Below, one piece after another: positions 9,587-44,460 of a stretch of DNA of 46,297 nucleotides. The notes beneath the pieces are model-generated. The model was not told the DNA's origin, did no database searches, and saw nothing but the letters and a program-made list of their open reading frames with translations. Every line of letters starts with the position of its first letter. The first letter of the stretch is position 1. Both the position numbers and the translations under genes were made by a program. Where the stretch lies: NCBI RefSeq assembly GCF_003859795.1, contig NZ_RQYI01000018.1:1-46297 (forward strand). Direction: 5' to 3'. Source of the DNA: Alloprevotella sp. OH1205_COT-284. Its GTDB lineage: Bacteria; Bacteroidota; Bacteroidia; Bacteroidales; Bacteroidaceae.

Positions 9587-10177
9587 TTATGCCTTTTCGC
9601 CGCTGTAAAGTTCCTCGAAACGGGCACGGACGATTTCATCGATCGTGGCCGAGCGTTTCGCGTCGCTTCGGAGCGTTTCCATCAGGTGAGTTCCTTCCAA
9701 TTCTTTCAGCGTATCGCCGGTCCTCTGTCGCTCTGCTTCGGTATGGGCGTGGCGGTGAATGACCGACAAGGCTTCCAGTACCCGTTCAAAATCAATTCCC
9801 GTGGCATATTCGCTTTCTCCCTGTATGGGAAGTTCCTCGTCCTCCTCTTCAAAGGGTGGAGAATCGGAGGACTCATACGTTAAAGGAATCTCATCTATGT
9901 CGGGCTGTTCATCCGGATCTTCCGATGGATCTTGTCCGTTTTCAGGAGCAAAAGTAGAAGCCTTTTTTGCTTCTGCCTCACCTTTTGGATAACTGCGTAC
10001 TTGTGGCTTCGAGTGGCTGAGCTTGAAGCGACTTTTACCGATGATTTCAGCGTCACTGACCGTTTGGCAAGGCTTTTTCTTAATTGCTCTGTTCTTTCTT
10101 TTTCCTCGTTCATACAAGAGAAAAAGCAGCAGCCACAAAAGGTAGAGCAAGAGAAGGACAAGGACTATTCGGAACAT
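9587..10177 (-). CDS. TraD-like conjugative transposon membrane protein
   Basis: 196 residues. One N-terminal membrane segment (about 3-22, RIVLVLLLLYLLWLLLFLLY) precedes a basic stretch, then a long acidic, disordered-looking middle (PEDSDEQPDIDEIPL-like residues 85-120) and a helical C-terminus (ATIDEIVRARFEELY). Position between the ParA-like gene and traE suggests TraD of the CTnDOT scheme, but the symbol is not certain. It overlaps the ParA-like gene by 13 bases. Its codons for PQVRSY contain the 16-bp regulatory sequence seen at three promoters. Confidence 0.7.
   Translation of the reverse strand: MFRIVLVLLLLYLLWLLLFLLYERGKRKNRAIKKKPCQTVSDAEIIGKSRFKLSHSKPQVRSYPKGEAEAKKASTFAPENGQDPSEDPDEQPDIDEIPLTYESSDSPPFEEEDEELPIQGESEYATGIDFERVLEALSVIHRHAHTEAERQRTGDTLKELEGTHLMETLRSDAKRSATIDEIVRARFEELYSGEKA
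9949..10007 (-). promoter_or_regulatory. Candidate internal promoter/operator for traE-traP
   Basis: Minus strand carries GCCACAAGTACGCAGT (10007 to 9992), then 35 bases, then TACTTTTG (9956 to 9949), which fits the Bacteroidetes -7 box TAnnTTTG. The same 16-mer is placed 36 bases from such a box at three other promoters. It lies inside the traD-like gene and points toward traE and later genes. The coding constraint of traD could explain part of the match, so function is an inference. Confidence 0.5.
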
Positions 10178-11894: not shown

Positions 11895-12323
11895 TTACAA
11901 TAGTTTTTTGAATTTGAGTTCATTTAATCTGTTTATTTCGTCCTTATAGACTTCAAAGTGATGGAGGATGATGTTCTCGACATAGATACCGATGGTCATC
12001 TCCCTGTTTTTCATCGACATGACTATCTCTGCCAGCTTTTCCTGCAATTCTCTGGCGACATAGATGGTCTTACGGTCTTTCAGGTCGTTGCGGTAGATGA
12101 ACAGGGATTCATAGTCTCCCTTCGGTATTCTGCGACGTGCACGGGAAAGAGGTCGTTTCACCTCCTCGGAAAGTTCTCTCTCTTCCTCCTGAGTTTCTTC
12201 GACAGACTCCTTTTCCTCGCAAGAAGCAGAGGGGGAACCCTCTTTCCGTCTCATGGGAATGCCCTGCGAGATCAGCTCCCTGATAGCATCAGGGTTTATT
12301 TTTTCTTTATGCTTCTCTGCCAT
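11895..12323 (-). CDS. traB: DUF3408-family protein (TraB-like)
   Basis: 142 residues. A charged N-terminal half (EEKESVEETQEEERELSEEV) is followed by a DUF3408 domain (FIYRNDLKDRKTIYVARELQ, MTIGIYVENIILHHFEVYKD). The domain resembles a ribbon-helix-helix DNA binder. It overlaps the end of the ParA gene traA by 17 bases, the usual traA-traB arrangement, and may act as the ParB-like partner. The symbol is by position and family. Confidence 0.78.
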   Translation of the reverse strand: MAEKHKEKINPDAIRELISQGIPMRRKEGSPSASCEEKESVEETQEEERELSEEVKRPLSRARRRIPKGDYESLFIYRNDLKDRKTIYVARELQEKLAEIVMSMKNREMTIGIYVENIILHHFEVYKDEINRLNELKFKKLL

Positions 12324-13089
12324 ACGCTTCCGGTTTTACAATGGACAGGATTTCTTCCACAAGTTCTTTCAGACGGCTGCCTCTGAGCAGCGTGCGGGAG
12401 GCGGGAAAGATGGTCGAACGGAAGAGGGTCGTACCCTCATCCATGATCTCCTTTTTGTAGCGGGTCGTGTTGGGGACTGCCGTCTTTAGGATGGGAAGTC
12501 CCAACTCGGCAATGACTTTCTCATACATCGCATAGAGGGGTGTTTTCTCTCTGCCGTCCACCATGTTCCAGAAGAGGAAAATCCCCTTGTTATCCGTATC
12601 CGCATTGTCAGTGACCGCCTGCTTGATAACGGCTGAAAAGCTCAGCGTGCTTTCCAAGGAGATACGGTCGGAAGAGATAGGCGTGAAGATGTAGTCCATC
12701 CCGGCAAGCGTGTCGATGACGCCCCTCGTGTTGATGGTACCCGGCAAATCGAAAAACACGAAATCTGTTTCCGATTCATTGTGTTCCAGATAATCCTGTA
12801 CGACGCCTATGGCTTCGTCCGAGGTCGTACAAAGGATGTTGTAGGTAGGCTTTTGAAGCCGGGAGAATTGGGCGACCGCCAATTCCTGTAGCGAGCTGTT
12901 TGTTTCCAAGCCTTTGGCATCCCGTTTTCTCATCTCGTTGATGCTGAACTGCGGGTAGTCGCAATCCACGACAAGGACATTGTATCCGCAGACATAGTGC
13001 AGATAGCTTGCCGTCAGGACCGTAAAGGTCGTTTTGCCGACGCCTCCCTTCTGGGTGGAGAAGGCGATAAAAACAGGTTTCTTTTTCAT
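12307..13089 (-). CDS. traA: TraA, ParA-type ATPase
   Basis: 260 residues. Deviant Walker A FSTQKGGVGKTTFTVLTAS at about 9-27, VLVVDCDYPQFS at about 39-50, and FVFFDLPGTINTRGVIDTLA near 109-128 mark it as ParA/Soj family. TraA is the first main gene of the Bacteroidetes tra operon and is thought to organise the transfer DNA or machinery in the donor. Its ATG overlaps the stop of a short upstream frame (ATGA). The promoter predicted at 13471-13478 would leave a leader of roughly 375 bases. Confidence 0.9.
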   Translation of the reverse strand: MKKKPVFIAFSTQKGGVGKTTFTVLTASYLHYVCGYNVLVVDCDYPQFSINEMRKRDAKGLETNSSLQELAVAQFSRLQKPTYNILCTTSDEAIGVVQDYLEHNESETDFVFFDLPGTINTRGVIDTLAGMDYIFTPISSDRISLESTLSFSAVIKQAVTDNADTDNKGIFLFWNMVDGREKTPLYAMYEKVIAELGLPILKTAVPNTTRYKKEIMDEGTTLFRSTIFPASRTLLRGSRLKELVEEILSIVKPEAYGREA

Positions 13090-13470: not shown

Positions 13471-13555
13471 CAAATATAGATGCCTTCAAAGCTCTTTTCC
13501 CACCCTTTTTGCTAACTGCGTACTTGTGGCTCCGATTTGCGTATTTGTGGCTCCG
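13471..13555 (-). promoter_or_regulatory. tra operon promoter with tandem operator
   Basis: On the minus strand two copies of GCCACAA(G/A)TACGCA lie 21 bases apart (13551-13539 and 13530-13518). The second belongs to the 16-mer GCCACAAGTACGCAGT (13530-13515). Exactly 36 bases later follows TATATTTG (13478-13471), a Bacteroidetes -7 box. The same 16-mer with the same 36-base spacing occurs at 24739-24798 and 35323-35382. This is the likely switch for conjugation genes. A 21-base direct-repeat phase is typical of LytTR regulator sites, but the true binder is unknown. Confidence 0.7.
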
Positions 13556-13587
13556 TAAGAGGTAAGTGATTTAGGCACAAGGCTTAG

Positions 13588-13595
13588 TAACTTTG
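13588..13595 (+). promoter_or_regulatory. Candidate mobilization operon promoter -7 box
   Basis: TAACTTTG fits the TAnnTTTG box and lies about 260 bases before mobA. It is divergent from the tra promoter, on the far side of the tandem operator. No good -33 TTTG box is visible at the expected distance, so the call is weak. Confidence 0.35.
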
Positions 13596-13854: not shown

Positions 13855-14268
13855 ATGACAAAGAGACATGTGGGGAGACCCCTTAAAAGAGAGAGAGCAA
13901 GCCATTGCTGTATGGTTCGGTTTACGGACACGGAGTTTGCGCGTTTCCTGACGCTTTATGAACAGTCAGGAGTCCCGAAAAAAGCGCTTTTCATCAAAGC
14001 AAGGGTCTTTGATGAGACTTTCCGGGTGATAAAAGTAGACCGTTCACTGCTCGATTATTACCAAAAACTGACGAATTTGTACGGGCAGTTTCGCAGTGTT
14101 GGAGTGAATTATAACCAAACTGTAGTCGCTTTGAAGAGTAATTTCACCGAGAAAAAAGCCTTCGCCATGCTTGCCCAATTGGAGAAACTAACACTCGAAT
14201 TGGCAGCCATCGGAGGTGAAATCGTACAACTCACCCGTGAATTTCAGGAAAAATGGTCGCAAAGATAA
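13855..14268 (+). CDS. Mobilization accessory protein (MobA/BmgB-like)
   Basis: 137 residues. A basic N-terminus (MTKRHVGRPLKRERAS) leads into a segment MVRFTDTEFARFLTLYEQSG typical of ribbon-helix-helix mobilization proteins, followed by VGVNYNQTVVALKSNF, the conserved helix of MobC-type relaxosome proteins. It should bind oriT and help the relaxase load. It overlaps the relaxase gene by 16 bases. Called mobA or mobB in different elements, so no symbol is given. Confidence 0.85.
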   Translation: MTKRHVGRPLKRERASHCCMVRFTDTEFARFLTLYEQSGVPKKALFIKARVFDETFRVIKVDRSLLDYYQKLTNLYGQFRSVGVNYNQTVVALKSNFTEKKAFAMLAQLEKLTLELAAIGGEIVQLTREFQEKWSQR

Positions 14269-18961: not shown

Positions 18962-19336
18962 TTACCGCTTCTTGAACTTGCCGCCTTTCAGGTCGCTCTC
19001 CACCATACGCTTGTTAAGTTTCTCTCGAAGTTCATCAAGGAAATAGGTACGGCTGTCATGCTTGCGACGCTTCATGTTCATATAGACATTGTAGCAGTTC
19101 TTGATTTCTATACCAAAGATTTAAGAAAAGGCGTCTGCCAATTCCTCCACTCCGATTTCTCCATCGTTGATACAGTCACAGGTGTCAAGGGCATAGAGTA
19201 GTTCCACTAAATCTACTACTTCGTCTGTCCAGCGAAACTTCTTGGCAGGAATGAGGGGAACGGTAGGTAAAACTCCCTGCATCCGCATATTCAACAGTTC
19301 CAGTTCTGTATCAATGACAGACAATAGCTCTGCCAC
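18962..19336 (-). pseudogene. rteC: RteC C-terminal remnant with internal stop
   Basis: The minus frame reads FRWTDEVVDLVELLYALDTC, then ...ELADAFS, an in-frame TAA at 19121-19123, then FGIEIKNCYNVYMNMKRRK and DSRTYFLDELREKLNKRM to a stop at 18962. This is the conserved C-terminal half of RteC, the CTnDOT-family activator of excision genes. The N-terminal half is missing, replaced upstream by the LytTR cassette, and the stop splits the rest. Loss of RteC means excision and transfer genes must be controlled differently here. Confidence 0.8.
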
Positions 19337-19607
19337 ATTTTTCCCCCGCCCTATCCGATGAGGGTTTATCTTGCAGAGATTGCAATCGGAAACGGGTATA
19401 ACGAAGAATACGGAGTATAAAAATGTTATCGTTCTCTTCCGTGTTCAATTTAATGATCTCTTTTATCAAGTTATCAGTTGCATTCCGCTGCTCGTCAGCG
19501 GACGATTCATTCGAAGAGAGTACTCTGAATGAAAATGTCTTAACTAATCTTTCCATATGCATTCGATTTTGAATTGTTGATTGGTATATAGCAAAGTCAA
19601 CTATCAT
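19311..19607 (-). CDS. Hypothetical 98-residue protein after the LytTR gene
   Basis: The frame begins ATGATAG, overlapping the response-regulator stop by four bases (ATGA). It encodes a mostly helical, charged protein (residues MERLVKTFSFRVL, then TDNLIKEIIKLNTEENDNIF and LRILRYTRFRLQSL). The last 8 or so residues run into the rteC remnant, so the natural C-terminus may be lost. No family is recognised. Coding is supported by the coupled start and smooth amino-acid composition, not by similarity. Confidence 0.45.
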   Translation of the reverse strand: MIVDFAIYQSTIQNRMHMERLVKTFSFRVLSSNESSADEQRNATDNLIKEIIKLNTEENDNIFILRILRYTRFRLQSLQDKPSSDRAGEKCGRAIVCH

Positions 19608-20320
19608 GTCATGAGCCTTTTGTAGAAATCTTCTTTGTAAGTATTGCCGATACCGATTTCATATTTTCCGATGAATACGTCGTTGGTGTCGAACGATTCT
19701 ATTTTCTCTAAGTTCACAACATAGGATTTGTTGATGCGGAAGAAAACAGACGGAGGCAGAAGTTCATGGATAGTGCGCAGGTACATCTTGGTAATGATGC
19801 GTCGATTTTCTGTTTGTATGATTACATAATCCTTTAAGCCTTCTATAAAGAGGATGTCGTCATATCTGATTTTGAAATATCTACGCTCTGATTTCACGAA
19901 GAAGAAATCCACATCTGCCTCCACACTTTCTTTCTCTGCATTGATGAGTAGGGTGTGATAGGCAGAAACCTTTTCCACTGCTTTACGGAAACGTTCTTCC
20001 TCGATGGGTTTGACGAGGTAATCGGTAGCGTTTACCTCATAGCTGTCCAATGCGTATTCTGAATAGGCTGTGGTAAAAACGACAAGTGTTTGTTGTGGGA
20101 TTTTACGGGCAAAATCAAGCCCGTTTGTTCCAGGCATCTCGATATCAAGGAATATTAAATCCACAGGATTATCTTTTATGTATTCAGTCGCAGATTCTGC
20201 AGACTCAAAATTGCCGACAAGTTCCAGCATTGGACTCTTGCGTACCAACCTTTCCAATCCTTCTCGGGCGATAGGTTCATCATCGACGATAATACATTTT
20301 ATAGGTTCACACATAAGCAT
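19604..20320 (-). CDS. LytTR-family response regulator
   Basis: 238 residues. A receiver domain holds the acidic pair DD at 13-14, the phospho-acceptor Asp in LIFLDIEMPG at about residue 59, and the conserved FTTAYSEYALDSYEVNATDY with Lys in LVKP. A LytTR DNA-binding domain covers about 135-238 (FFFVKSERRYFKIRYDDILF, MYLRTIHELLPPSVFFRINK). LytTR proteins bind two direct half-sites about 21 bases apart upstream of promoters. It follows the kinase gene with a 22-base overlap, forming a two-component pair. Whether it controls its own cassette, the transfer promoters, or chromosomal genes is not shown. Confidence 0.93.
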   Translation of the reverse strand: MLMCEPIKCIIVDDEPIAREGLERLVRKSPMLELVGNFESAESATEYIKDNPVDLIFLDIEMPGTNGLDFARKIPQQTLVVFTTAYSEYALDSYEVNATDYLVKPIEEERFRKAVEKVSAYHTLLINAEKESVEADVDFFFVKSERRYFKIRYDDILFIEGLKDYVIIQTENRRIITKMYLRTIHELLPPSVFFRINKSYVVNLEKIESFDTNDVFIGKYEIGIGNTYKEDFYKRLMT

Positions 20321-21357
20321 ACAGTATATTTATTTTCTTCTTCCGTAATGGATAAGGTATAAGACTTTCCGAATAGCAATTCTAGTCTCCGTTTGATGTT
20401 TTTCAACCCCAAACCTCCGTAATGATTCGATGTACGAGAAGCGGCCTTGGTGTTTTCGCACTGGAAGTGCAGTTGGTTTCCGAATGCGGCAAACGTGATG
20501 TGTATGTTTGTCTTTCCTTTGACTTCAACACTATGCTTGACCGCGTTTTCTACAAAGGGAATAAATAGTAATGGATATATAGATATATCTTCCACCACGC
20601 CCTCTGTCTTGATTTCGTAATACAAGTTTCCGTGACGTGTACTTTCCAGTTCCAAATAGTCATGCAAGAAGGAAATTTCATTCCGTATCAGAACTTTTTC
20701 TTGCGAGGATTCGGACAACTGATAGGCCAACAAATTTTCAAGCCGGGAAAGAATGGCATATGCCAGTTGTGGTTCTTGCTCTGCTTTAATGTTGGCATTA
20801 TTGAGCGTGTTGAAAAGAAAGTGCGGATTTATCTGGCTTTTCAGTTGTTGCAATTCTGCTTCTGCCGTCGTCTTTTCCAATTCCGATACTCGACGGCTGT
20901 TTTCAGCCCAGCAACGAAACAGTGGTACTACTGAAGTAGAGGCTATCGTCAATCCCAACAATAACATATTTCCTGCGATATTGAAACAAAGAGAGGTCAG
21001 CCTGTAACTTTTGGGAACATCGTACAGGGTGTTTTGCACCAGTATGATAAAAAGCATCAACAGAAATACGCACAAACCGATTGAAGCGAAATATCCTGAC
21101 AACTTATTGCGCAACAGGAAACGAGGAACCAGCAGGCGGGCGTTGGTATATACGGTGCAGGTGAAGACAATGAAATATGCCATCCATTCGTAAAACCTTG
21201 CATTCGTGAGCCGTTCGTGTACACTGCCAGTGTTATAGACCATTTCCATTGTCAAGACAACTATAATGCAAAGTAAAAGCAGGTTTCCCATTCTATGGAA
21301 TCCTCCTGTTTGGATTTGTGTTCCAATCTTTTTATTTATCTCTTTCAATAATGCCAT
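20299..21357 (-). CDS. LytS-like membrane sensor histidine kinase
   Basis: 352 residues. Four hydrophobic segments lie at about 24-42, 57-74, 88-110 and 123-145. The His_kinase domain follows with phospho-acceptor His at 179 in QINPHFLFNTLNNANIKAE. The ATP-binding N box is FIPFVENAVKHSVEVKGKTN and the G box GGLGLKNIKRRLELLFG. This is the catalytic sensor paired with the LytTR regulator. No extracellular sensor domain is seen, so the signal is probably detected in the membrane. Preceded by the degenerate kinase-like gene. Confidence 0.92.
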   Translation of the reverse strand: MALLKEINKKIGTQIQTGGFHRMGNLLLLCIIVVLTMEMVYNTGSVHERLTNARFYEWMAYFIVFTCTVYTNARLLVPRFLLRNKLSGYFASIGLCVFLLMLFIILVQNTLYDVPKSYRLTSLCFNIAGNMLLLGLTIASTSVVPLFRCWAENSRRVSELEKTTAEAELQQLKSQINPHFLFNTLNNANIKAEQEPQLAYAILSRLENLLAYQLSESSQEKVLIRNEISFLHDYLELESTRHGNLYYEIKTEGVVEDISIYPLLFIPFVENAVKHSVEVKGKTNIHITFAAFGNQLHFQCENTKAASRTSNHYGGLGLKNIKRRLELLFGKSYTLSITEEENKYTVCLCVNL

Positions 21358-21414
21358 TCGATTCTTTATGTTTATTAATTCCCAAAAACTTTATCGAAAA
21401 ATTTCTTGGAAAGC

Positions 21415-22422
21415 TTAGGAACTTTTCAAACTCGTTTTGTGTGAAGCGTTTTCTGGTCTTCTTGAGATGGTAAAAATGCGCTTACCCGTTTTGGGAGGAT
21501 TGCTATTGTTTGTACAGGTACAGACAAGCGTGTCGGCGCATATTTCAATCTCAATTTCCATTCGGTCTTTTCCCGGTGAATTGAATAGATGTTCTTCTAC
21601 AAACGATAGTAACGTCAATGGAGGAATAAAACAAATACCAGTCCTCATTTGGCAAGAGAGTGTGAAATCGGTGAGAGCCCCGCACTTCTTTTCCAAATTC
21701 AGGTAGTCTTTAAGGATTTTAATTTCGGAATTGAGTGGTACAACCGGATTGCTGCAATCGTATAGGCGATAGCGTACAATCCGGCTCAGTGTCAATAATA
21801 GCGGAGATACTTCCGGAGGTTCGGTCAGGCATAGTGCAGTTGCTTTTTTCAATTTAGCCAAAAGAAATTCCGATCCGATATTGTTTCTCAAATTTTCCAA
21901 CTCAACGGTTAGTCTGCGAGTTCCGATTTGTTCCTCCATCTCTGTCATCTGAATCCAATGTTTGTAAAAGACGATTACAGTAATACTCGTCACCGACAAT
22001 GCCAGTACCGAGAAATCGGAGAAGAAATCGACTGCTTTATTGCGTCCGTCAGAAAAAAAAGAATATGGACCGAAAGGTATTTGATACTTAAAATGAATGT
22101 AATACTCCAAGCCGATATTCGCTATCACGAATGTGAATATTGCAGCGAGCAAGACAGCTGCATATTGCACATACCTTTCTTGTTGTAGCAATTTAGGAAT
22201 GAAGGTGTACATATTCAGATATATCAGCAACAGATAAGCTACTATATGCACAAATATAATACCACAAACATCTCCGCCTCGAATCTGTTCTCCATAGGTA
22301 ATAAAAATATGGTTTGTGGAGATAATGCCGATGGAGATGATAAGCAGGAAATGGCGAGTCCATCTGTATTTCTTCTCCATAAGAAAATCATATAATACGC
22401 TTTGTTTCTTTCTCTCTTGCAT
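21415..22422 (-). CDS. Kinase-like protein lacking the phospho-accepting His
   Basis: 335 residues. It has the same layout as the next gene: four hydrophobic segments in residues 25-155, then a His_kinase-like region. Where the active kinase has INPHFLFN, this one has IGSEFLLA, so the histidine is Glu (about residue 185). The N box is degenerate (LSFVEEHLFN) and no GxGLxN box is present. It is probably a pseudokinase, acting as a sensor or regulatory partner of the neighbouring LytS-like kinase. It lies 57 bases upstream of the active kinase and 10 bases after the serine hydrolase gene. Confidence 0.85.
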   Translation of the reverse strand: MQERKKQSVLYDFLMEKKYRWTRHFLLIISIGIISTNHIFITYGEQIRGGDVCGIIFVHIVAYLLLIYLNMYTFIPKLLQQERYVQYAAVLLAAIFTFVIANIGLEYYIHFKYQIPFGPYSFFSDGRNKAVDFFSDFSVLALSVTSITVIVFYKHWIQMTEMEEQIGTRRLTVELENLRNNIGSEFLLAKLKKATALCLTEPPEVSPLLLTLSRIVRYRLYDCSNPVVPLNSEIKILKDYLNLEKKCGALTDFTLSCQMRTGICFIPPLTLLSFVEEHLFNSPGKDRMEIEIEICADTLVCTCTNNSNPPKTGKRIFTISRRPENASHKTSLKSS

Positions 22423-22432
22423 ATATATACTA

Positions 22433-23560
22433 TTACTTTTTTGCCAAGTCTTCCATTATTTCAAAACACAATGCGTCTACATTTTTCGCATGAGGATGCA
22501 GAAAAGAAACATTGGAAAGAATAATGACTCCACTCTTTTCATTCATATCGAATACCATAGAGGAAGAAAAACCGCCCGTACCACCATTGTGCCAATATAA
22601 ATCGTTTCCGTTATCTGCCTTTACGATATGCCATCCAAGTGCTACGCTAAGTTTGTCGTTTACTTTGAAAGTCGGTTTTCTTGTCATTGCAAGTTCTTTG
22701 TTGCCCATATCAAATTGAGCCTCTAAAAAACATGCCATATCGTTTGCAGAAGAAAGAATGCCACCGGCTCCTAAAAACACATCCGAATCCCATATCCAAT
22801 TGCCGATAGGAACACCTGTGCGGCTTATTCCTTTGACAAGACCGGTTTCTACTAATCTTGCATCTGTATATGAATTGTTCATTTTGTACTTTTTGAAGAT
22901 TTTATTGGAAACGAGTTCCGTGAAACTGCATTTTTCCATTTGACATAACGTATATCCCAACAAACCTGTTCCCAAATTTGAATACAGATATTCTTTCCTA
23001 TCGGAAGAACAACATAATTGCAACTGATTTCTGAGGTAATACTCTAATTCAGAGTCGCTGTATTTCTGAAAAGGATTTTCCCGCTCTGCTTTTGTGCTGT
23101 CTGCCAGAAACTCTGAAAGTTGCAAATTGGAGGGATTTTCTCCCAATCCGGATGTATGATTTGACAGGCTTTCAAAAGTTATCCGCACATCATCCTTGAA
23201 CGTATAAGGGTAAAATTTGTTTATGTCGTCTGTCTGTTTAATCTTCCTTTTAAGTATTGCATCGGCGAGTAATGTCGCCGTAAAGACTTTTGAAATTGAG
23301 CCAATCTCAAAAATCTTATCTTTGTTCTCAATATTTTTAATCGTGTCATTTTGCTTTATAATTCCATAAAAATGGGATATCCCATTTTTTATGAGCACGA
23401 TGGATAGTTGAGTTTCATTAGACAAATCCTTTGTCTTTTCAAATATTTTTTGCGTCAGGTTTTCTCTCAAACCAGTTAAATCATTTACGACATTCTGTGA
23501 AAAAGTTATTCCATGTCCAAACAGGGTTATCAAAAGGAATAGCGCGATTTTTATTGTCAT
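22433..23560 (-). CDS. Beta-lactamase-family serine hydrolase
   Basis: 375 residues. N-terminal signal peptide (about 1-21, ending ITFSQ). The catalytic set of class C beta-lactamase/DD-peptidase-like enzymes is complete: SISK (Ser88, Lys91), YSN (Tyr193-Asn195) and HNG in DLYWHNGGTGGFSS (His324-Gly326). It would work in the periplasm on a peptide, ester or beta-lactam. Real beta-lactamase activity cannot be told from sequence; many such genes are esterases or peptidases. It sits in one operon with an outer-membrane protein and a two-component system, so it may respond to or act in envelope stress. AT-rich compared with the element. Confidence 0.88.
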   Translation of the reverse strand: MTIKIALFLLITLFGHGITFSQNVVNDLTGLRENLTQKIFEKTKDLSNETQLSIVLIKNGISHFYGIIKQNDTIKNIENKDKIFEIGSISKVFTATLLADAILKRKIKQTDDINKFYPYTFKDDVRITFESLSNHTSGLGENPSNLQLSEFLADSTKAERENPFQKYSDSELEYYLRNQLQLCCSSDRKEYLYSNLGTGLLGYTLCQMEKCSFTELVSNKIFKKYKMNNSYTDARLVETGLVKGISRTGVPIGNWIWDSDVFLGAGGILSSANDMACFLEAQFDMGNKELAMTRKPTFKVNDKLSVALGWHIVKADNGNDLYWHNGGTGGFSSSMVFDMNEKSGVIILSNVSFLHPHAKNVDALCFEIMEDLAKK

Positions 23561-23600
23561 ATAATCTTATAATGTATTAAACGTTATACTTGAGCATTTA

Positions 23601-24506
23601 TTATAATCCGTATCGGATACCTATTGAAAAATAGGGAGATACGCCGAAATGTGGGTAGTTGTCTTTGCTGCTGAAGAAAGCCTTCAATGTCCGTGAACGA
23701 AAATAAGCTTCTCTTGATGCAACAATTCCTCCGACAATGGGGATAGAAATATATTGCCCAATTCTGAACTCTGGTTGAATACCTATATAACCATACTGCA
23801 TCACGAAATACTTCTTGCTGCCATTTTTTTCTACTGCAGCCATAAGCCCTTTGGATTCTGCATGTATTCCCAGATAGAAACTCTTACTAAATCGTGTGCT
23901 GATTTCTGCCTCGAATGTATTATACATGGATAATTTGAATTTGTATTTTCCCTCTATTTTCCAATCCAGATATAAGGACGGAAAAATCATTGGATACCCC
24001 AGCGCATTATTCAACGCGATACCAGCCCCCCAGTCCAAATTCTTGTTTGCGTGTCTGATAAATAATACACCTCCCTGACCGAGAAACGAGCTGCCCGATA
24101 TTTTGTTCAGATCGGATGTGTACATTCCAGCTCCTAAAATAGCGAGTATAGACCATTTCTCATTAAGTGGTCGCAGATGCATAACTCCCATTTGAGCATT
24201 CATAAGTTCTTTCTCTGTAAAATCCGATGGCATTTCTTTATTTTTCATGGAAGCGTATGTACCACCCAAAGCAACAATCCAAGCCGTCAGTCTCCCGTTT
24301 TCATTCTTTCTTACATATAAAGGAAGTCTCGCTGAGCCTTCAAAGGTCTGCAAGTTTCCTTCACCACCGATTTTATTGCCATTCTCATCTTTATATACAG
24401 ATGAAGCAATATATTCTGACTTTAATTGAATCTGGGCAAACATATTCGCTTTTCCCGATAATAGGAACAGCATAAAAACATATATCCTAATTATTCTTTG
24501 ATCCAT
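23601..24506 (-). CDS. Outer-membrane beta-barrel protein (DUF6268-like)
   Basis: 301 residues from MDQRIIRIYVFMLFLLSGKA, giving a signal peptide ending near NMFAQ; a longer frame to 24575 lacks a good start and was rejected. The mature protein has alternating polar/hydrophobic strands rich in G, Y, F (LGQGGVLFIRHANKNLDWGA, SPYFSIGIRYGL at the end), and the C-terminus ends in the hydrophobic/aromatic pattern of barrel proteins. It resembles DUF6268 outer-membrane proteins of Bacteroidetes. First gene of the five- to six-gene minus-strand cassette, with its own promoter. Confidence 0.72.
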   Translation of the reverse strand: MDQRIIRIYVFMLFLLSGKANMFAQIQLKSEYIASSVYKDENGNKIGGEGNLQTFEGSARLPLYVRKNENGRLTAWIVALGGTYASMKNKEMPSDFTEKELMNAQMGVMHLRPLNEKWSILAILGAGMYTSDLNKISGSSFLGQGGVLFIRHANKNLDWGAGIALNNALGYPMIFPSLYLDWKIEGKYKFKLSMYNTFEAEISTRFSKSFYLGIHAESKGLMAAVEKNGSKKYFVMQYGYIGIQPEFRIGQYISIPIVGGIVASREAYFRSRTLKAFFSSKDNYPHFGVSPYFSIGIRYGL

Positions 24507-24524
24507 AATAGTGTTATTTTGATA

Positions 24525-24532
24525 CAAAGATA
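24525..24532 (-). promoter_or_regulatory. -7 box for the LytTR cassette operon
   Basis: Minus strand TATCTTTG fits TAnnTTTG about 20 bases before the ATG at 24506. The -33 TTTG element is not obvious. Confidence 0.5.
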
Positions 24533-24717
24533 CCGTATAAAACAATATGCTTTGAAGAAAATAGACAAACAGCAAGTTTTCAACATATGAAATGCTGATT
24601 CATGATATACAAGTTTTCTTTGTTGTTTGAATTATATACTTTTACCGATATGTATTGTTTAGGTATATTTAGATTATCCACATCTTTAGAAACTAATGGT
24701 AGTCTTTATCCATAATA
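24533..24717. other. AT-rich intergenic region
   Basis: No gene seen. Contains two direct copies of CAAGTTTTC 37 bases apart near 24572 and 24609, of unknown meaning. The cassette's upstream control region is probably here; the right border of the AT-rich cassette appears to lie between here and 24720. Confidence 0.4.
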
Positions 24718-24798
24718 GCCACTTCTATCCATATCGACGCCACAAGTACGCAGTTATTTCTAACTACTAACATGCACATTTTCTTTGATTTACCTTTG
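24718..24798 (+). promoter_or_regulatory. Promoter/operator of the DUF3945-topoisomerase operon
   Basis: GCCACAAGTACGCAGT at 24739-24754 is followed after exactly 36 bases by TACCTTTG at 24791-24798. A partial second copy starting GCCAC lies 21 bases upstream (24718). The arrangement duplicates that of the tra promoter (13471-13555) and the xis-region promoter (35323-35382). Confidence 0.7.
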
Positions 24799-24837: not shown

Positions 24838-26232
24838 ATGGATGAAAAAATCAAAGACCAAGAAGTCCTTTTGGTCAAGGATCAGAAGGGCGAAAACCTC
24901 AAAGCCGTCACAGGTACGGACGAGAAAGGTGGGCTGAAAACCGTTCCGCCCACCGCCGAGCATGAACAGAGCTTCCTGAAGTTCGACAAGCACAGCAATG
25001 CGCTGGAGAATTTCCTTTCCAATTTCATGCGGCAGTTCAAGAACCCCACACCGCTGACTTTCTTCAAGGTTCCCTTTGAGAGTGCCGTAGCCAGTGCCCG
25101 CGTACTCTCGGAGATGCTCAAAGCACCGGATGTCCCATCCAATAAGGAGATGCTGGACTCCGCCCGTGTCAATCCTTCCGACTATGCGGAAGAGCAGAAA
25201 CAGTCTTTTCAAGGCATCGACCCCGATAAGGTGAAGTGGGAGCAGTTCGAGCAGATGGGCGTAAGCCGTGAAAGTCTGGAAAAAGGCAAGCATCTTGATG
25301 ACCTGCTTCAATACAGAAAGACTCCACTTGTTCCCATCAGCATCAAAATCGGGGAAGTCTCCCTCTACACCGATGCCCGTCTTTCTCTGAAAGCCTCAGG
25401 AGACGGGACATTCATTCCCGTTGTCCATGCCATCCGCAAGGAGCCTCAATTGGAGCGTGAGTTCTTCGGGCATACCTTTACCGATGAGGACAAGAAAGCA
25501 CTCAAAGAAACGGGCAACCTCGGCCGTACCGTGGAGCTGAACTTTCCCGGCAAAGAGGAGCCTACCCGAAGTTTCGTAAGCATCGACCGCCTGACGAATG
25601 ACATCATCGCCCTGAGTGCCGACCGGGTACGCATCCCCGATGAAATCAAGGACGTGAAGCTGAGCGACGAGCAGAAAAAGGAACTCTCGGAAGGCAAAAG
25701 CATCTACGTGGAGGGTATGACCTCCAAAACAGGAAAGCATTTCAATGCCAACCTCCAATTCAATGCCGACAAGCGGTCGATTGAATTTCGTTTCGGCTCT
25801 CCCAAACAGGAACAACGTCAAAGACAAGCCCCCGAAGGGCAGGAGCAAACGGAGCAGAAAGAACTGCGTGTCCCCAAGAAGATGCTGGGACGCGACATCT
25901 CTCCCGAAGAGCAGGCAAAGCTCAAAGCCGGAGAAACGGTCTATATGACCGGGCTTATCGACAAGAAGGGAGAGCCTTTCAATGCCTATGTACGTCCGAA
26001 CTTCGAGAAGAACAAGTTCGACTTCCTCAAATGGAATCCCGACAAGTCCCAAGCCAAAGAGGTAACTCCCGACAATGCTTCCCGCACGCAAGTCGCCGTC
26101 AATTCCGAAGGCAAGACCAACGAGGCTACCAAGCATGTGAAAGAGCCACTCAAACAGGGGCAGACAGAACCTACCGCCCAGCAGGAACAAAAGGAAGAAG
26201 AGAAGAAGCGTTCCAAGGGAATGAAAATGTAA
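24838..26232 (+). CDS. DUF4099/DUF3945-type repeat protein
   Basis: 464 residues, highly charged, no signal peptide. Residues 105-200 (FQGIDPDKVKWEQFEQMGVS, PLVPISIKIGEVSLYTDARL) match the DUF4099 module. From about 210 there are three repeats built on a pattern of F/L/I-(T/S)-x-E-(D/E)-x-K-x-L, then a turn and TGK/KGEPFNA (for example LSDEQKKELSEGKSIYVEGM and ISPEEQAKLKAGETVYMTGL). This repeated module occurs also at the C-terminus of the next gene, topoisomerase. Likely a DNA-processing partner carried by conjugative transposons. First gene of the operon driven by the conserved operator at 24739. Confidence 0.8.
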   Translation: MDEKIKDQEVLLVKDQKGENLKAVTGTDEKGGLKTVPPTAEHEQSFLKFDKHSNALENFLSNFMRQFKNPTPLTFFKVPFESAVASARVLSEMLKAPDVPSNKEMLDSARVNPSDYAEEQKQSFQGIDPDKVKWEQFEQMGVSRESLEKGKHLDDLLQYRKTPLVPISIKIGEVSLYTDARLSLKASGDGTFIPVVHAIRKEPQLEREFFGHTFTDEDKKALKETGNLGRTVELNFPGKEEPTRSFVSIDRLTNDIIALSADRVRIPDEIKDVKLSDEQKKELSEGKSIYVEGMTSKTGKHFNANLQFNADKRSIEFRFGSPKQEQRQRQAPEGQEQTEQKELRVPKKMLGRDISPEEQAKLKAGETVYMTGLIDKKGEPFNAYVRPNFEKNKFDFLKWNPDKSQAKEVTPDNASRTQVAVNSEGKTNEATKHVKEPLKQGQTEPTAQQEQKEEEKKRSKGMKM

Positions 26233-26235
26233 TCC

Positions 26236-26260
26236 GCCACCACTAACATCCCAAAAGTAA
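26236..26260 (+). repeat. Recurring leader motif before topB
   Basis: GCCACCACTAACATCCCAAA then AGTAA lies just upstream of the topoisomerase ATG (26267), matching the CACCACTAAAATCC(n3)GTAAAA motif. Confidence 0.6.
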
Positions 26261-26266
26261 GAACGA

Positions 26267-28396
26267 ATGAAAGTCATCATAGCAGAAAAGCCGAGCGTCG
26301 CTCGTGAAATCGCCCGTGTCGTTCGGGCAACCAACAAGAAAGAGGGTTATATCGAAGGAGGCGGCTATGCCGTCACGTGGGCATTGGGACACCTGATAAC
26401 GGCAGCCATGCCCGAAGCCTACGGCATCAAGGGTTTCCACAAAGAAAACCTGCCGATTCTTCCTCCCGTCTTTACCCTTATTCCCCGTCAAATTAAGGAT
26501 GGAAAAGGCTACAAGACTGATCCGAGTGCCGTTGCCCAATTGAAAGTCATCGAAAAACTATTCCGAGCGTGCGAAGGCATTATCGTAGCCACCGATGCAG
26601 GAAGGGAAGGTGAGTTAATCTTCAGGTTCATCTACGAGTATCTCGGCATTGCCAAACCCTTCGACCGCTTGTGGATCAGCTCACTCACGGACAAAGCCAT
26701 CAAAGAGGGGCTTGCCCGTCTGCAAAGCGGCGCAGCGTATGACAACCTCTATTATGCCGCCCGTGCCCGCAGCGAAGCCGACTGGCTGGTCGGCATCAAT
26801 GCCACACAAGCCATATCCATTGCAGCAGGAAGAGGTACTTACTCATTAGGCAGGGTACAGACCCCGACCCTCTGTATGGTCTGCTCCCGTTTCTTGGAGA
26901 ACAAGAAGTTCGAGCCACAGCCATTCTGGCAACTCAGCCTTGCCGTAAGGGAAGGTGATGAGAGCTTCCGCTTCTCCTCTGCCGACCGCTGGTTCGATAA
27001 GACGGAAGCCACCGCCCTGTACGAGAAACTCAAACAAGCTCCTTATGCCACTGTTGAGACCGTTGTGCGTAAGGAGACCAAACAGGAACCACCGCTTCTG
27101 TATGATTTGACCACTCTTCAGAAAGAAGCGAACAGCCGGTTCGGCTATTCGGCGGAACAGACCCTTTCCTTGGCTCAGAAACTCTATGAAAAGGCATACA
27201 TTACCTACCCACGCACGGGCAGCCGCCATATCCCCGAAGATGTCTTTGCCGAAATTCCAGCTTTGATAGCATTTTTGCACGACCATTCCGTCTGGGGTGT
27301 CCATGCCCGCCGACTGACCGAACCGAATGCACATTCGGTGGACGGCAAGAAAGTAACCGACCACCACGCCCTGCTCATTACGGGCAAGAAGCCGATAGAC
27401 GTGTTTGGAGAGGAAGCGGTCATTTACGATATGATAGCCGGACGTATGCTCGAAGCCTTCTCCACCCGTTGCGTAAAAGATGTCAGCACGGTTACTGCCG
27501 TCTGTGAAGAGGTGAAGTTCATCATCAAAGGCGAAATCATCAAGGAAGAGGGATGGCGCGCCATCCTCAAAAACAGCAGAAAAAAAGACAAGGAGCAGGC
27601 GGAAGCCGAAGAACGGGAAAGTCGGGAGAATGGAGAAGGCATCATCATCCCACAATGGGAGGAAGGCGAGCAACTTCCGCTCTGTGCCTGTTCGTTGGCA
27701 CAGGGTACGACCAAGCCCAAGCCTCTGCACACGGAAAGTTCGCTGTTGGCAGCAATGGAGACGGCAGGCAGAGAGTTGGAGGACGAGGAACTGCGTGCGC
27801 AGCTCAAGGATTGCGGCATCGGCACGCCCGCTACCCGTGCCGCCATCATCGAAACCCTCTTTGCACGCGAGTACATGGTGCGCCAAAAGAAATCGCTCGT
27901 CCCTACGGAGAAAGGACTTGCCGTCTATTCCATCGTCAAGGAGATGAAAATCGGCAATGCCGAGATGACCGGACAGTGGGAAGCGGACTTGGCGAGAATC
28001 GAACGGGGAGAATTGAAAGAGCGGGATTTCCGCAAGGGCATCGAAAGCCATGCCACACAGATTACCGACGAACTCCTCTCCTCCAAAATCCTCTTTCCAA
28101 AGAAACAGAGCGACATCCATTGCCCCAAGTGCGGCAAAGGGTCATTGGTCTTCTATCCCCGATGTGCCAAATGCTCGGATGCCGATTGCGGGCTGACGCT
28201 TTTCCGCAGCGTGGCAGGCAAGAACCTCACGGACGAGCAACTGACGCAGTTGGCGGTGAACGGGGAGACAGGCATCATCAAGGGCTTCACCACCAAAGCG
28301 GGCAAGAGCTTTGAGGCTTCGCTCTCCTTGGACGGAGAGTTCAAGACAGTCTTTGTCTTTCCCGAACGCAAGAAAACGGGCAAATCCCGAAGGTAA
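26267..28396 (+). CDS. topB: Topoisomerase III (type IA), exc-type
   Basis: 709 residues. The Toprim domain starts at residue 1 (KVIIAEKPSVAREIARVV) and includes the acidic motif TDAGREGELIFRFIYEY (about 108-124). The active-site Tyr lies in KAYITYPRTGSRHIP at about 313. The central type IA fold includes GRGTYSLGRVQTPTLCMV. A Cys4-like zinc module (CPKCGKG...CAKCSDADC, about 620-645) and a repeat shared with the upstream gene end the protein. Topoisomerases of this type (Exc of CTnDOT) assist excision and transfer DNA handling. Preceded 34 bases by the DUF3945 gene. Confidence 0.93.
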   Translation: MKVIIAEKPSVAREIARVVRATNKKEGYIEGGGYAVTWALGHLITAAMPEAYGIKGFHKENLPILPPVFTLIPRQIKDGKGYKTDPSAVAQLKVIEKLFRACEGIIVATDAGREGELIFRFIYEYLGIAKPFDRLWISSLTDKAIKEGLARLQSGAAYDNLYYAARARSEADWLVGINATQAISIAAGRGTYSLGRVQTPTLCMVCSRFLENKKFEPQPFWQLSLAVREGDESFRFSSADRWFDKTEATALYEKLKQAPYATVETVVRKETKQEPPLLYDLTTLQKEANSRFGYSAEQTLSLAQKLYEKAYITYPRTGSRHIPEDVFAEIPALIAFLHDHSVWGVHARRLTEPNAHSVDGKKVTDHHALLITGKKPIDVFGEEAVIYDMIAGRMLEAFSTRCVKDVSTVTAVCEEVKFIIKGEIIKEEGWRAILKNSRKKDKEQAEAEERESRENGEGIIIPQWEEGEQLPLCACSLAQGTTKPKPLHTESSLLAAMETAGRELEDEELRAQLKDCGIGTPATRAAIIETLFAREYMVRQKKSLVPTEKGLAVYSIVKEMKIGNAEMTGQWEADLARIERGELKERDFRKGIESHATQITDELLSSKILFPKKQSDIHCPKCGKGSLVFYPRCAKCSDADCGLTLFRSVAGKNLTDEQLTQLAVNGETGIIKGFTTKAGKSFEASLSLDGEFKTVFVFPERKKTGKSRR

Positions 28397-34534: not shown

Positions 34535-34855
34535 CTACGTGTCTTTGGGTAATCTCTTCCTCTTGCGTTTGAGGTTCTCCGTAAAGTGAGTTTGCATAAA
34601 GGCGAGGATTTCCGATTCCAGATACCACGTCTTGTGATAGACGATATGGTAAGGAAGGGTTCCCGAATCTCGGTAGCGTTGCAGGGTGCGCTTGCTCACT
34701 TGAAGCATCATGCACACCTCTTGGTTATCCAGCAGCGGTTCTCCGTCTATCATCGGACGTTGGGGGATGTCGGGAGCCGTCTGTTTTAGGTCATCGAAAC
34801 GCTTCATGATGCGTTCCATCCATTCAAGGAAGGTCGCTCTATCCAATAGTTCCAT
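34535..34855 (-). CDS. Xis-like helix-turn-helix protein 1
   Basis: 106 residues. The HTH_17/excisionase-type core is PLLDNQEVCMMLQVSKRTLQ, then RYRDSGTLPYHIVYHKTWYLES (about 40-80). This is the winged-helix-like MerR/excisionase fold seen in Xis2c/Xis2d of CTnDOT. The start overlaps the end of the next gene upstream by 17 bases. A basic tail (NLKRKRKRLPKDT) suits DNA binding. Confidence 0.82.
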   Translation of the reverse strand: MELLDRATFLEWMERIMKRFDDLKQTAPDIPQRPMIDGEPLLDNQEVCMMLQVSKRTLQRYRDSGTLPYHIVYHKTWYLESEILAFMQTHFTENLKRKRKRLPKDT

Positions 34856-35192
34856 CCTTTATCCTCCTGCTTTTAAGTTCGAAGTTATGCCGTAGCTCTT
34901 TCAGGTTCTGAGGATTGCAGTACAGGCTCTTGTTCCGTATCGCCTCCTCGATGTCATGCAGGGCGTAGTAGCAACGCCCGTAGATCATCTTATAGCTGAT
35001 TCTGTCCGCACTGCGCATACGCTGGAGGGTACGTTTGCTGATACCGAGTATCTCGGCTAACTCATCATTGGTGACAAGACGGTTCTCATACTCTATCTTT
35101 GCCTTTTCCTCTTTCTCCACATATCGGAGGATTTTCTCAATTTTGCCCATCAGTTCATGGTAGGCTTTGCTTTCGATTGTTATGACATCCAT
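34839..35192 (-). CDS. Xis-like helix-turn-helix protein 2
   Basis: 117 residues from ATG MDVITIESKAYHELMGKIEK; a longer frame to 35387 runs into the divergent promoter and was rejected. HTH core RLVTNDELAEILGISKRTLQ at about 43-62. The N-terminus resembles that of the divergent gene at 35414 (MEVITIEKKTYEAMMERF), so the two are paralogues. Operon with the 106-residue gene downstream. Confidence 0.82.
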   Translation of the reverse strand: MDVITIESKAYHELMGKIEKILRYVEKEEKAKIEYENRLVTNDELAEILGISKRTLQRMRSADRISYKMIYGRCYYALHDIEEAIRNKSLYCNPQNLKELRHNFELKSRRIKDGTIG

Positions 35193-35301
35193 GACGCTTT
35201 GAATTTGATTATGCTGCAAAGTTCGGGAGTTAAAACCGTTCGGATTGTATGCTAAATATGTACTGAATAGAGATTTTTCTGTCTGCGTCCAAAAGCCACA
35301 C

Positions 35302-35382
35302 GACAAAAGCATCCATATCGAAGCCACAAGTACGCAGTAAAGGAAATGTTGGTTTTGAATACTTACTCCGTAAGTACATTTG
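35302..35382 (+). promoter_or_regulatory. Operator/promoter between divergent xis-like genes
   Basis: GCCACAAGTACGCAGT at 35323-35338 is followed after exactly 36 bases by TACATTTG at 35375-35382, a -7 box. GTTTTG near 35352 could serve as -33 element. The spacer includes an inverted repeat ACTTAC/GTAAGT. The upstream 21-base half-site is weak (GACAAAAGCATCC), unlike the tra copy. Confidence 0.65.
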
Positions 35383-35413: not shown

Positions 35414-35692
35414 ATGGAAGTAATAACAATCGAGAAGAAAACGTATGAAGCCATGATGGAACGTTTTCTCATTTTGACCGCCAAAGTCGATGCCCTGTGT
35501 CGGGAATGCGACGAAAAGCGTATGGGCAGGTGGCTGGACAATCAGGATGTCTGCCAAATCCTGAACATCAGTTTGCGTACCCTGCAAACTTACCGCAGCA
35601 ACCGAATGCTGCCCTATACGCAAATAGGGTATAAGATGTTCTACAAGCCGGAGGATGTCGGGAAACTGCTCGAACAATCCTCCGCTTTATGA
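35414..35692 (+). CDS. Xis-like helix-turn-helix protein 3
   Basis: 92 residues, MEVITIEKKTYEAMMERFLI at the start, HTH core RWLDNQDVCQILNISLRTLQ then TYRSNRMLPYTQIGYKMFYK. Excisionase-type DNA-binding protein and paralogue of the divergent gene. It is transcribed from the conserved operator-bearing promoter and is followed 37 bases later by a fourth member. Confidence 0.82.
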   Translation: MEVITIEKKTYEAMMERFLILTAKVDALCRECDEKRMGRWLDNQDVCQILNISLRTLQTYRSNRMLPYTQIGYKMFYKPEDVGKLLEQSSAL

Positions 35693-35729: not shown

Positions 35730-36032
35730 ATGGACAACGATGTAAAGACCAAGAACAACGAAGAGATTGCGCACTTTCTCAACGCGACCGACCGCATGAT
35801 AAAGGGAATAGATGTCCTGCGGAAAAAGAACAGACCTCTGCTTAACGGGCATCGCTATCTGACGGACGATGAACTGTCCCGCCTGTTGCATATCAACCGG
35901 CGCACGTTACAGGATTATCGCAACATGGGAAGAATCTCCTTTATCAAGTTAGGAGGAAAGGTACTCTACAGGGAAGAAGATGTGGAAAAACTATTACAGG
36001 AGAATTATCGCCCTCGGTTTGAGAAGCCTTGA
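35730..36032 (+). CDS. Xis-like helix-turn-helix protein 4
   Basis: 100 residues. HTH core HRYLTDDELSRLLHINRRTL then QDYRNMGRISFIKLGGKVLY, with REEDVEKLL after it, the same fold as the three neighbours. A typical HTH_17/excisionase protein of Bacteroidetes conjugative transposons. It ends ten bases before a terminator hairpin. Confidence 0.83.
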   Translation: MDNDVKTKNNEEIAHFLNATDRMIKGIDVLRKKNRPLLNGHRYLTDDELSRLLHINRRTLQDYRNMGRISFIKLGGKVLYREEDVEKLLQENYRPRFEKP

Positions 36033-37665: not shown

Positions 37666-37938
37666 CGAGGAATTGGAAGAATGTAGAGAATAAACCTGTA
37701 ACGTGTTGTGAATTAGTTGATTTTCTATATTCTGCGAGTATGATAGGAAAGCAGTTCGACACGGAATATTGAATCCTTTCGGTTACCAAACCGTTATCCG
37801 TTGGTTTCCCTAGTGTGGTGAGGTAACGAAAAAAAGGAGAGATTTCTATGGAGAGGTTTCTATCTCACTATTCCACAATGTTTTGCTTGTCAAAGAACGC
37901 TTTAACAACGGGTAATTTTGTCCATAAAATTAAAGCGT
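37666..37938. other. Non-coding gap with nested inverted repeat
   Basis: No gene seen. GTTACC (37782-37787) pairs with GGTAAC (37822-37827), and AAACC (37788-37792) with GGTTT (37803-37807). It lies just upstream of the integrase gene, where CTnDOT-type elements have attachment or Xis sites. TAATTTTG at 37913-37920 is a possible -7 box for the integrase. Confidence 0.4.
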
Positions 37939-39168
37939 ATGACAATAGAGAAATTCAAGGTATTGCTCTACCTCAAAAAGAGCCGATTGGACAAGTCGGG
38001 CAAAGCTCCCATCATGGGACGTATCACCGTCAACCGTTCGATGGTGCAGTTCAGTTGCAAAATCTCCTGTACGCCCGATTTATGGAATCCTCGAGAAAGC
38101 CGTCTGAAAGGCAAGAGCCATGAAGCCGTGGAGACCAATGCGAAGTTGGACAAGCTGATGCTCTCCATCCACACGGCATTCGACACGCTTGTGGGAAGAA
38201 ATGCGGACTTCGATGCGGAAGCCGTCAAGAACCTATTTCAGGGAAGCCTCGAAACGCAGATGACCCTGTTGGGAATGACGGACATCGTCTGTGAGGAACT
38301 GAGAAAGCGTATCGGGATAGACCGGGCAAAAGGGACTTACCCTGCCTATTTCTACACCCGGAGAACCTTGGCAGAGTTCATCGAAAAGGAGTTTCGCACC
38401 AAAGACGTTGCTTTCGGTCAGATGACGGAACAGTTTATCCACGATTACCAGAGTTTCATTTTGGACGAGAAAGGACTTGCCGTAGATACCTGTCGCCACT
38501 ATCTGGCTATCGTCAAGAAAGTATGCCGAAAAGCCTACAAGGACGGTTATGCCGACAGATGTTTTTTCGCTCATTTCAGTCTCCCCAAACAAAAGGAGAA
38601 GACACCAAAAGCCCTAAGCCGGGAATCCTTCGAGAAAATCCGTGACTTGGTAATCCCCGAACATCGCGCCTCCCACATTTTGGCAAGAGATCTCTTTCTC
38701 TTTGCCTGCTATACGGGAACAGCCTACGCCGATGCAGTTTCCGTTATGCGTGACAATCTGTTCACGGATGACAATGGCGAGCTGTGGCTTAAATACTGCC
38801 GCAAGAAAAACGAGCTTCGTGCCTGTGTCAAGCTGCTGCCCGAAGCCCTTGACCTGATAGAGAAGTACCGGGATGATGCTCGTCCGACCCTCTTTCCAAT
38901 GCTGTACCATCCCAACCTTCGCCGTCTGATGAAAAGCCTTGCGGTTCTTGCGGGCATTAAGGAAGACCTGACCTACCATGCCGGCAGGCACTCATTCGCA
39001 TCGCTGATTACCTTGGAAGCCGGCGTTCCTATCGAGACCATCTGCAAGATGCTGGGACACTCCAACCTCCAGACCACACAGGTATATGCAAAGGTCACGC
39101 CCAAGAAACTCTTCGAGGATATGGACAAATATATCGAAGTGACAAAAGATTTGAAACTTGTATTATAA
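37939..39168 (+). CDS. Tyrosine recombinase (IntDOT-like) 1
   Basis: 409 residues from ATG MTIEKFKVLLYLKKSRLDKS; the frame continues 21 bases upstream through a TTG. SAM-like arm-binding domains occupy about 1-215. The catalytic domain carries LTYHAGRHSFASLITLEAGV (His, Arg, His near 345-350) and nucleophile Tyr in TTQVYAKVT (about 381). The usual Arg I motif (TGLR) is TGTAYAD here, without Arg, as known for IntDOT-type enzymes. It is likely the element's integrase, ending 25 bases before a second one. Confidence 0.92.
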   Translation: MTIEKFKVLLYLKKSRLDKSGKAPIMGRITVNRSMVQFSCKISCTPDLWNPRESRLKGKSHEAVETNAKLDKLMLSIHTAFDTLVGRNADFDAEAVKNLFQGSLETQMTLLGMTDIVCEELRKRIGIDRAKGTYPAYFYTRRTLAEFIEKEFRTKDVAFGQMTEQFIHDYQSFILDEKGLAVDTCRHYLAIVKKVCRKAYKDGYADRCFFAHFSLPKQKEKTPKALSRESFEKIRDLVIPEHRASHILARDLFLFACYTGTAYADAVSVMRDNLFTDDNGELWLKYCRKKNELRACVKLLPEALDLIEKYRDDARPTLFPMLYHPNLRRLMKSLAVLAGIKEDLTYHAGRHSFASLITLEAGVPIETICKMLGHSNLQTTQVYAKVTPKKLFEDMDKYIEVTKDLKLVL

Positions 39169-39193
39169 CACCCCATAGATAATAAATGAATTT

Positions 39194-44261: not shown

Positions 44262-44289
44262 ATATGTATCGTTTTGATTTTCTAAGGTG

Positions 44290-44297: not shown

Positions 44298-44320
44298 CGG
44301 AGACGCACAGGGGTAAAATA

Positions 44321-44434: not shown

Positions 44435-44460
44435 CACGAGTTTTCATAAACAGATAAGAT

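Follow-up and report, generated by a model that had tools for sequence, protein, structure and literature searches.

The window analysed here is the whole of a 46,297-nucleotide stretch of the Alloprevotella sp. OH1205_COT-284 genome (contig C10), in which a 16-mer, GCCACAAGTACGCAGT, occurs in four exact copies, designated A to D. Three of these had been located by an earlier sequence-only reading, at 13530-13515 (minus), 24739-24754 (plus) and 35323-35338 (plus), and all were confirmed, together with the claim of fixed spacing, since the −7 boxes of A, C and D start after 36, 36 and 36 bases. A fourth exact copy, at 10007-9992 (minus), had been missed. The features on which the analysis relies are as follows.

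9949-9956, minus: TACTTTTG, a possible −7 box, 35 bases after copy B
9992-10007, minus: operator copy B, exact 16-mer, within the open reading frame 9587-10177 (minus), upstream of traE
12307-13089, minus: ParA-like gene, the first gene of a known family behind copy A
13471-13478, minus: −7 box TATATTTG of the tra promoter, gap 36 from copy A
13515-13530, minus: operator copy A (downstream half-site), tra promoter, exact 16-mer
13536-13551, minus: upstream half-site of operator A, 21 bp away, 3 mismatches, half-site score 22.3
13855-14268, plus: MobC, start of the divergent mob operon
18965-19607, minus: rteC region, two frames, one in-frame stop
24718-24733, plus: upstream half-site of operator C, score 17.0
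24739-24754, plus: operator copy C, DUF3945/topoisomerase/methylase operon, exact 16-mer
24791-24798, plus: −7 box TACCTTTG of operon C, gap 36 from copy C
24838-26232, plus: DUF3945/DUF4099 protein, first gene of operon C
26267-28396, plus: topoisomerase (Exc-like), operon C
34535-34855, minus: Xis2d-like HTH_17 protein (HTH_17, 1.8e-10; 45% to its homologue in G364), preferred candidate reader
34839-35192, minus: Xis2c-like HTH_17 protein (HTH_17, 5.3e-11 for the longer reading frame), candidate co-reader
35247-35268, plus: conserved block ahead of the xis2c-like gene, proposed RteC target
35302-35317, plus: upstream half-site of operator D, score 15.3
35323-35338, plus: operator copy D, ahead of the plus-strand HTH_17 pair, exact 16-mer
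35375-35382, plus: −7 box TACATTTG of operon D, gap 36 from copy D
35414-35692, plus: HTH_17 protein a, first gene of operon D
35730-36032, plus: HTH_17 protein b (excisionase-family domain), operon D

With up to 3 mismatches allowed, the window holds 5 matches to the 16-mer against 0.24 expected, and the maximum among 100 shuffles was 2. Apart from these four copies and the half-sites preceding A, C and D, no position in the window scored above 12.4. In the rest of the genome, contig C20 carries one exact copy and one with 1 mismatch, and contig C46 one with 2 mismatches (the reversed pattern, used as a control on the same genome, gave 3 matches at up to 2 mismatches); exact copies are thus confined to C10 and C20. 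A −7 box of the form TANNTTTG, as judged by the Bacteroidota −33/−7 promoter criterion, is present at A, B, C and D. Copy B has a gap of 35, one base shorter than the others, and the class of sites upstream of traE to which it belongs lacks an upstream half-site in register; its function is uncertain, and it is possibly a duplicate of A. Copy A sits in the mob-tra interval. Directly upstream of operator A, at 13552-13590 (minus), lies a block (ttactaagc.ttgtg...) common to several tra loci and to loci of the MobC/DUF3408 class described below that adjoin MobC, a possible oriT.

The lone 16-mer had been taken as the unit, in surroundings that share little. The second statement holds for the 36 bp that follow the 16-mer at these three promoters (11, 12 and 6 of 36 identical pairwise) but not for the 21 bp upstream, where 13, 13 and 14 of 21 positions are identical and where random 21-mers of the window reach at least 11 matches in 0.8% of cases. 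At A, C and D alike the 16-mer is preceded, at a distance of 21 bp, by a near copy, so the unit is a tandem repeat. Over five site classes, 14-mer matches peak at this very offset, with a mean of 9.3 of 14 as against 2.4 to 5.3 at the other 26 offsets; the tandem is absent from the traE-upstream class. These alignments show the 16-mer to be the downstream half, nearer the promoter, of a proposed tandem operator with half-sites 21 bp apart. Conservation in both halves, weighted by class, is at least 95% at G1, C3, A4, C13 and A14, and the CA steps of the tandem are phased by 10, 11 and 10 bp, which would fit proteins bound head to tail. Promoters of Bacteroidota follow a −33/−7 consensus. A TTG at the −33 spacing, 18 to 21 bp before the −7 box, was found in 0 of 97 distinct operator promoters, and these promoters therefore look activator-dependent.

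To see how far the arrangement extends, as the sequence-only reading had suggested, the contigs of other genomes were scanned for GCCACAAGTACGCA followed, after a free gap of 23 to 53 bases (31 spacings), by TANNTTTG; since the −7 box belonged to the query, the scan tests the spacing alone. The 113 stretches recovered (L022-L134) hold 121 matches, distributed over gaps of 28 (1 match), 34 (1), 37 (24), 38 (92), 39 (2) and 42 (1), where a gap of 38 equals 36 after the full 16-mer. The expectation was borne out in many elements, 116 of the 121 matches lying at the predicted spacing or one less, or 116 of 117 when only matches within element contexts are counted. Of the five matches off the peak, those in Nocardia, an actinomycete bin, Lysinibacillus and a Paludibacteraceae bin lie outside element contexts, look like chance and were excluded from the classes below; the fifth, with a gap of 34, is a Porphyromonas site. 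The 117 sites were assigned by sequence and by the genes behind each site, eight of them by hand, to tra (16), the traE-upstream position (16), DUF3945 (33), the HTH_17 pair of conjugative elements (class D, 11), the HTH_17 pair of mobilizable elements (class E, 19) and the MobC/DUF3408 interval (class F, 22). Their hosts are Prevotella-type genera, Porphyromonas, Bacteroides, Tannerella, Capnocytophaga and relatives. The gap of 36 was also kept in five further class D loci with differing letters (L278-L282; four distinct promoters). Among DUF3945 homologues sought in 250 genomes of one family, matches occurred in 27 genomes, and the three full-length ones (81 to 97% identity, L200-L202) all have the operator; none was seen in the upstream stretches read for the other homologues, several of which were in the wrong orientation. 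Nothing convincing was found ahead of tra in the G322 element. In viral contigs the 16-mer occurred in 6 stretches, none with a −7 box at 23 to 53 bases, which was taken as background, and the RteC profile found no relative there.

A set gathered blind to the motif was obtained by collecting the promoters of HTH_17a homologues by protein from 60 genomes of one genus, giving 30 loci. TTTG[CT] was present near the start in 17 of them and absent in 13. Within the 17, the hexamer GC[CA]A[CA]A lies 55 to 56 bp before TTTG in 11 (9 distinct; L230 is also in the pattern set) and is missing in 6, and the only other hexamer offset observed is 77, that is, 56 + 21.

A second lineage is formed by five conjugative elements whose TraG is 73 to 77% and whose RteC is 38 to 42% identical to the reference proteins, and which we take to be CTnDOT-like from their gene order and the CTnDOT map; two of them, G364 and G354, look like near copies. 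There the operator is respelled. The new spelling, defined ahead of HTH_17a, where it occurs in all five, recurs before tra in four of five, with 3 to 4 mismatches of 20 to that HTH_17a spelling, the uncounted element being G331, whose stretch stops short of the tra side. It is also found upstream of traE in three of five (4 mismatches), with none found in G346 at this place, and the −7 box of tra is TTTATTTG, not TANNTTTG. Three other respelled matches (3 to 4 mismatches) lie elsewhere in these elements without a TTTG at the right distance. Sites within one element are more alike than homologous places across the two lineages, suggesting that the reader changed along with its sites; operator and reader seem to have changed together.

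The operator is also carried by mobilizable elements. Behind 17 of the 19 class E sites lies an HTH_17 gene of one subfamily. Six class E loci (L184-L189, 20 kb each) hold integrase genes, but nothing in them matched RteC or the tra proteins of the window; in the two of the six whose neighbours were scanned there is a primase-type gene with a Mob_Pre or NikA/MobA-type relaxase. The class E hosts G303, G314 and G321 gave no RteC match at all, and G323 just one at 42%. Because the search pattern itself picked out the oral class E elements, any oral mobilizable elements spelled differently would be missed. Two gut mobilizable elements found by protein (L276, L277) have a spelling close to that of the CTnDOT-like tra site, and the 20 kb read for each holds no RteC or Xis2c/Xis2d match. 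NBU1 and elements like it are described in PMC5704250 as needing helper regulators for expression of their excision genes; the shared operator would be the DNA basis of such helper-dependent expression here. The class F loci L190, L192, L194, L195, L197 and L198, from several genera, combine MobC, operator and DUF3408, with rteC in five of six and no match to the window's type IV secretion genes in the stretches read.

What protein, then, reads the operator? The single activator at a fixed position proposed in the sequence-only reading fits these data: that one shared trans-acting activator would read all copies is well supported by the fixed spacing, the lack of a −33 TTG, the recurrence before homologous operons and the respelled sites. 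The further proposal that it turns on transfer, DNA processing and excision together stands in part. Operators do lie at the tra and topoisomerase operons, but the third promoter, described as that of a xis-like gene, drives a second HTH_17 pair. The gene at 35414 (plus) does encode an HTH_17 protein; by gene order, however, the xis2c/xis2d counterpart is the divergent pair at 34535-35192 (minus). An assignment of the 35414/35730 pair as Xis2c and Xis2d was dropped, because gene order in the CTnDOT-like elements favours the divergent pair. Control of excision would thus be indirect.

We consider it somewhat better than an even chance that the operator is read by Xis2c/Xis2d, an HTH_17 pair of excisionase type, whose targets would be tra, the topoisomerase operon and the second HTH_17 pair. 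The activator would be encoded by the element and, at these promoters that lack a recognisable −33 box, would be placed upstream of RNA polymerase. RteC would turn on the xis2c promoter, leading to synthesis of Xis2c and Xis2d (34839-35192 and 34535-34855), which would in turn act on tra and the plus-strand HTH_17 pair and, in this clade, also on the DUF3945-topoisomerase-methylase operon, which lies apart. Where a mobilizable element has the operator but neither rteC nor tra, the activator of a co-resident element would switch it on in trans. The CTnDOT excisionases are reported also to act as transcription factors, with Xis2d binding in the mob-tra interval (PMC9956884), and PMC5729914 describes excision proteins that regulate the transfer operon, with RteC acting via excision functions including Xis2c. 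These published roles, the position of copy A and a Porphyromonas endodontalis element together make Xis2c/Xis2d the preferred candidates. In that element the RteC C-terminal part shares 68 to 69% identity with those of two relatives, and another sequence takes the place of the block before xis2c, whereas every one of its four copies of the 16-mer is exact and Xis2d and Xis2c are kept at 92% and 85%; divergence of RteC and its block beside an unchanged operator counts for Xis over RteC. Several observations count against Xis. The two lineages differ in their operators but hardly in the recognition helices of the Xis2c- and Xis2d-like proteins; class F loci carry the operator, mostly with rteC, in genomes without clade Xis2d; and G312 and G322 hold the operator and clade rteC but gave neither an HTH_17a match at E≤1e-12 nor an Xis2d match at E≤1e-15. 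The stray respelled matches, the near copies and the differing tra −7 box of the second lineage, the atypical copy B, the six motif-blind promoters lacking the hexamer and the apparently broken rteC of the window also weigh against the proposal as a whole. Clade Xis2d (at least 85% identity) and clade HTH_17a (at least 86%) occur in the same 14 of 33 genomes, so that co-occurrence cannot separate the two.

The main rival, unlikely in our estimate but to be taken seriously, is direct control by RteC, which would read the 16-mer and activate tra, topA and the HTH_17 pair without an intermediary. The pairing of operator and rteC in class F speaks for it, as does clade RteC, matched at E≤1e-40 in 26 of 30 operator genomes; in the remaining four, every exact operator is of class E. 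Moreover, an RteC match was present in all eight elements first compared, the C-terminal part is strongly conserved in 14 loci, and RteC is reported to control excision and transfer genes of CTnDOT in PMC1976400. Against it, besides P. endodontalis, stands a candidate RteC target elsewhere. In the five CTnDOT-like elements a palindrome occurs once per element, before xis2c, where the operator is not in matching register, and the window's clade has another conserved block at that place; RteC target half-sites are inverted. RteC is reported to act on the excision operon (PMC10865816). The predicted structure of the RteC C-terminal part (mean pLDDT 59) was left unused, and no convincing relative was found by sequence in the PDB (best E 0.77).

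Less probable still is that the plus-strand HTH_17 pair (35414, 35730) of each element reads its own promoter and the other copies. The pair does adjoin operator D in conjugative and mobilizable elements, including gut L276 and L277. However, protein b of the oral mobilizable elements is about 37% identical to that of the window and yet goes with the same operator, whereas proteins at 44 to 45% (CTnDOT-like) and 47 to 48% (gut mobilizable) go with other spellings, a comparison biased by the oral elements having been found by the operator pattern. It is very improbable that the copies arose by recent duplication or form a repeat with no role in regulation: A and B look alike also downstream of the 16-mer, but the 36 bases that follow it differ among A, C and D, the position is kept over many elements, and the respelled set lies at homologous places. 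A host regulator, for which the occurrence in several genera might speak, we regard as equally far-fetched, given that exact copies in the own genome are restricted to two contigs, that a match with up to 1 mismatch was found in 7 of 295 genomes sampled from the order, and that spelling goes with element type. The LytTR response regulator encoded at 19604-20320 was rejected as reader, its relatives of 63 to 98% occurring in just 3 of 30 operator genomes and the next reaching at most 44%.

Under the preferred Xis2c/Xis2d reading RteC would act at the top of the circuit. Clade rteC usually lies in two overlapping frames that meet at a purine run ending in at least 5 A (for example GGGGAAAAAA before T). 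All 24 pattern-fetched loci with BLAST hits to both rteC parts (19 distinct junctions) agree in having a +1 (or −2) frame relation, and split loci include the window (18965-19607, minus), L100, L065 and L083. In 16 of the 24 the second frame opens just 9 to 30 nt earlier, without ATG, GTG or TTG, and expression of the DNA-binding part therefore seems to need a frameshift or slippage. Exceptions are L149 (Prevotella oral taxon 376), with another frame relation, P. endodontalis, without the run, and P. crevioricanis L153, with one open frame. The window's rteC has in addition one in-frame TAA, within 18965-19357 (minus), whereas many relatives have C-terminal parts free of stops. Given this stop and the frame split, the window's element may be uninducible on its own; its operators are intact although its rteC looks broken.

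Other parts of the window's element vary. Between the mob/traD genes and the DUF3945 operon, at 19604-24575 (minus), lie a LytTR regulator, two histidine kinases, a beta-lactamase-fold protein and DUF6268; the L149-L151 element has other genes at this place, including an AraC-type hybrid kinase, and the LytTR gene is cargo. At 37918-40396 (plus), two integrases are 42 to 52% identical to the pair of mobilizable elements, 91 to 94% to the L198 pair and about 35% to the single integrase of L151, by which likeness the right end appears to be a mosaic. At 42519-45885, one ABC transporter gene (94%) and a TonB-type gene (96%) resemble genes near rteC in the class F locus L197 of P. loveana.

The circuit resembles the CTnDOT cascade (RteC, then Xis2c/Xis2d/Exc, then tra), with corresponding genes by homology and gene order. 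Copy A falls within the mob-tra interval, the reported binding region of Xis2d (PMC9956884), and CTnDOT-like elements have the respelled operator at homologous places, including this interval in four of five. There are also differences. The xis2c-xis2d-orf3-exc genes of CTnDOT form one operon. The window does have xis2c- and xis2d-like genes, whose homologues precede DUF3945-topA in CTnDOT-like elements, but its DUF3945-topA (24838-28396, plus) is a separate operon with its own operator, away from xis2c/xis2d at 34535-35192 (minus), and the element was therefore not filed as a CTnDOT-type member. Furthermore, tetQ, rteA and rteB were none of them among the window's open reading frames scanned, and its rteC is two-framed and interrupted. 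As with SetCD/AcaCD, where one helper activator switches on the excision genes of dependent mobilizable islands (passages of PMC5704250), one regulator would serve several elements, yet the proteins and hosts are others and the activator proposed here is of the excisionase type. The mobilizable elements share a relaxase, a primase-type gene and integrases with the NBU1 type, but the oral ones have the exact operator before an HTH_17 pair and mostly two integrase genes. LytTR-type sites are direct repeats about 21 bp apart, like the 21-bp repeats of the operator, although the LytTR gene is not kept with it. Outside the central CTnDOT papers, a literature search, including the operator letters, found no description of the operator; the CTnDOT tra site may already be mapped.

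Overall, the operator is real, conserved and element-wide, and the circuit is a variant, resolved in more detail, of a control scheme already known, clearly linked to mobilizable elements. More tentatively, and short of what we would call probable, one respellable operator could define an element-wide regulon across Bacteroidota conjugative elements, in which an excisionase would be the master activator of transfer, topoisomerase/methylase and accessory genes, mobilizable families would carry the local spelling to excise in step, and RteC would be gated by programmed frameshift or transcript slippage. As a searchable sequence, the operator can indicate which operons join the transfer programme and which mobilizable elements listen; it makes the synchrony of helper and hitchhiker testable and predicts where CTnDOT's own activators would act on the tra and HTH_17 promoters.
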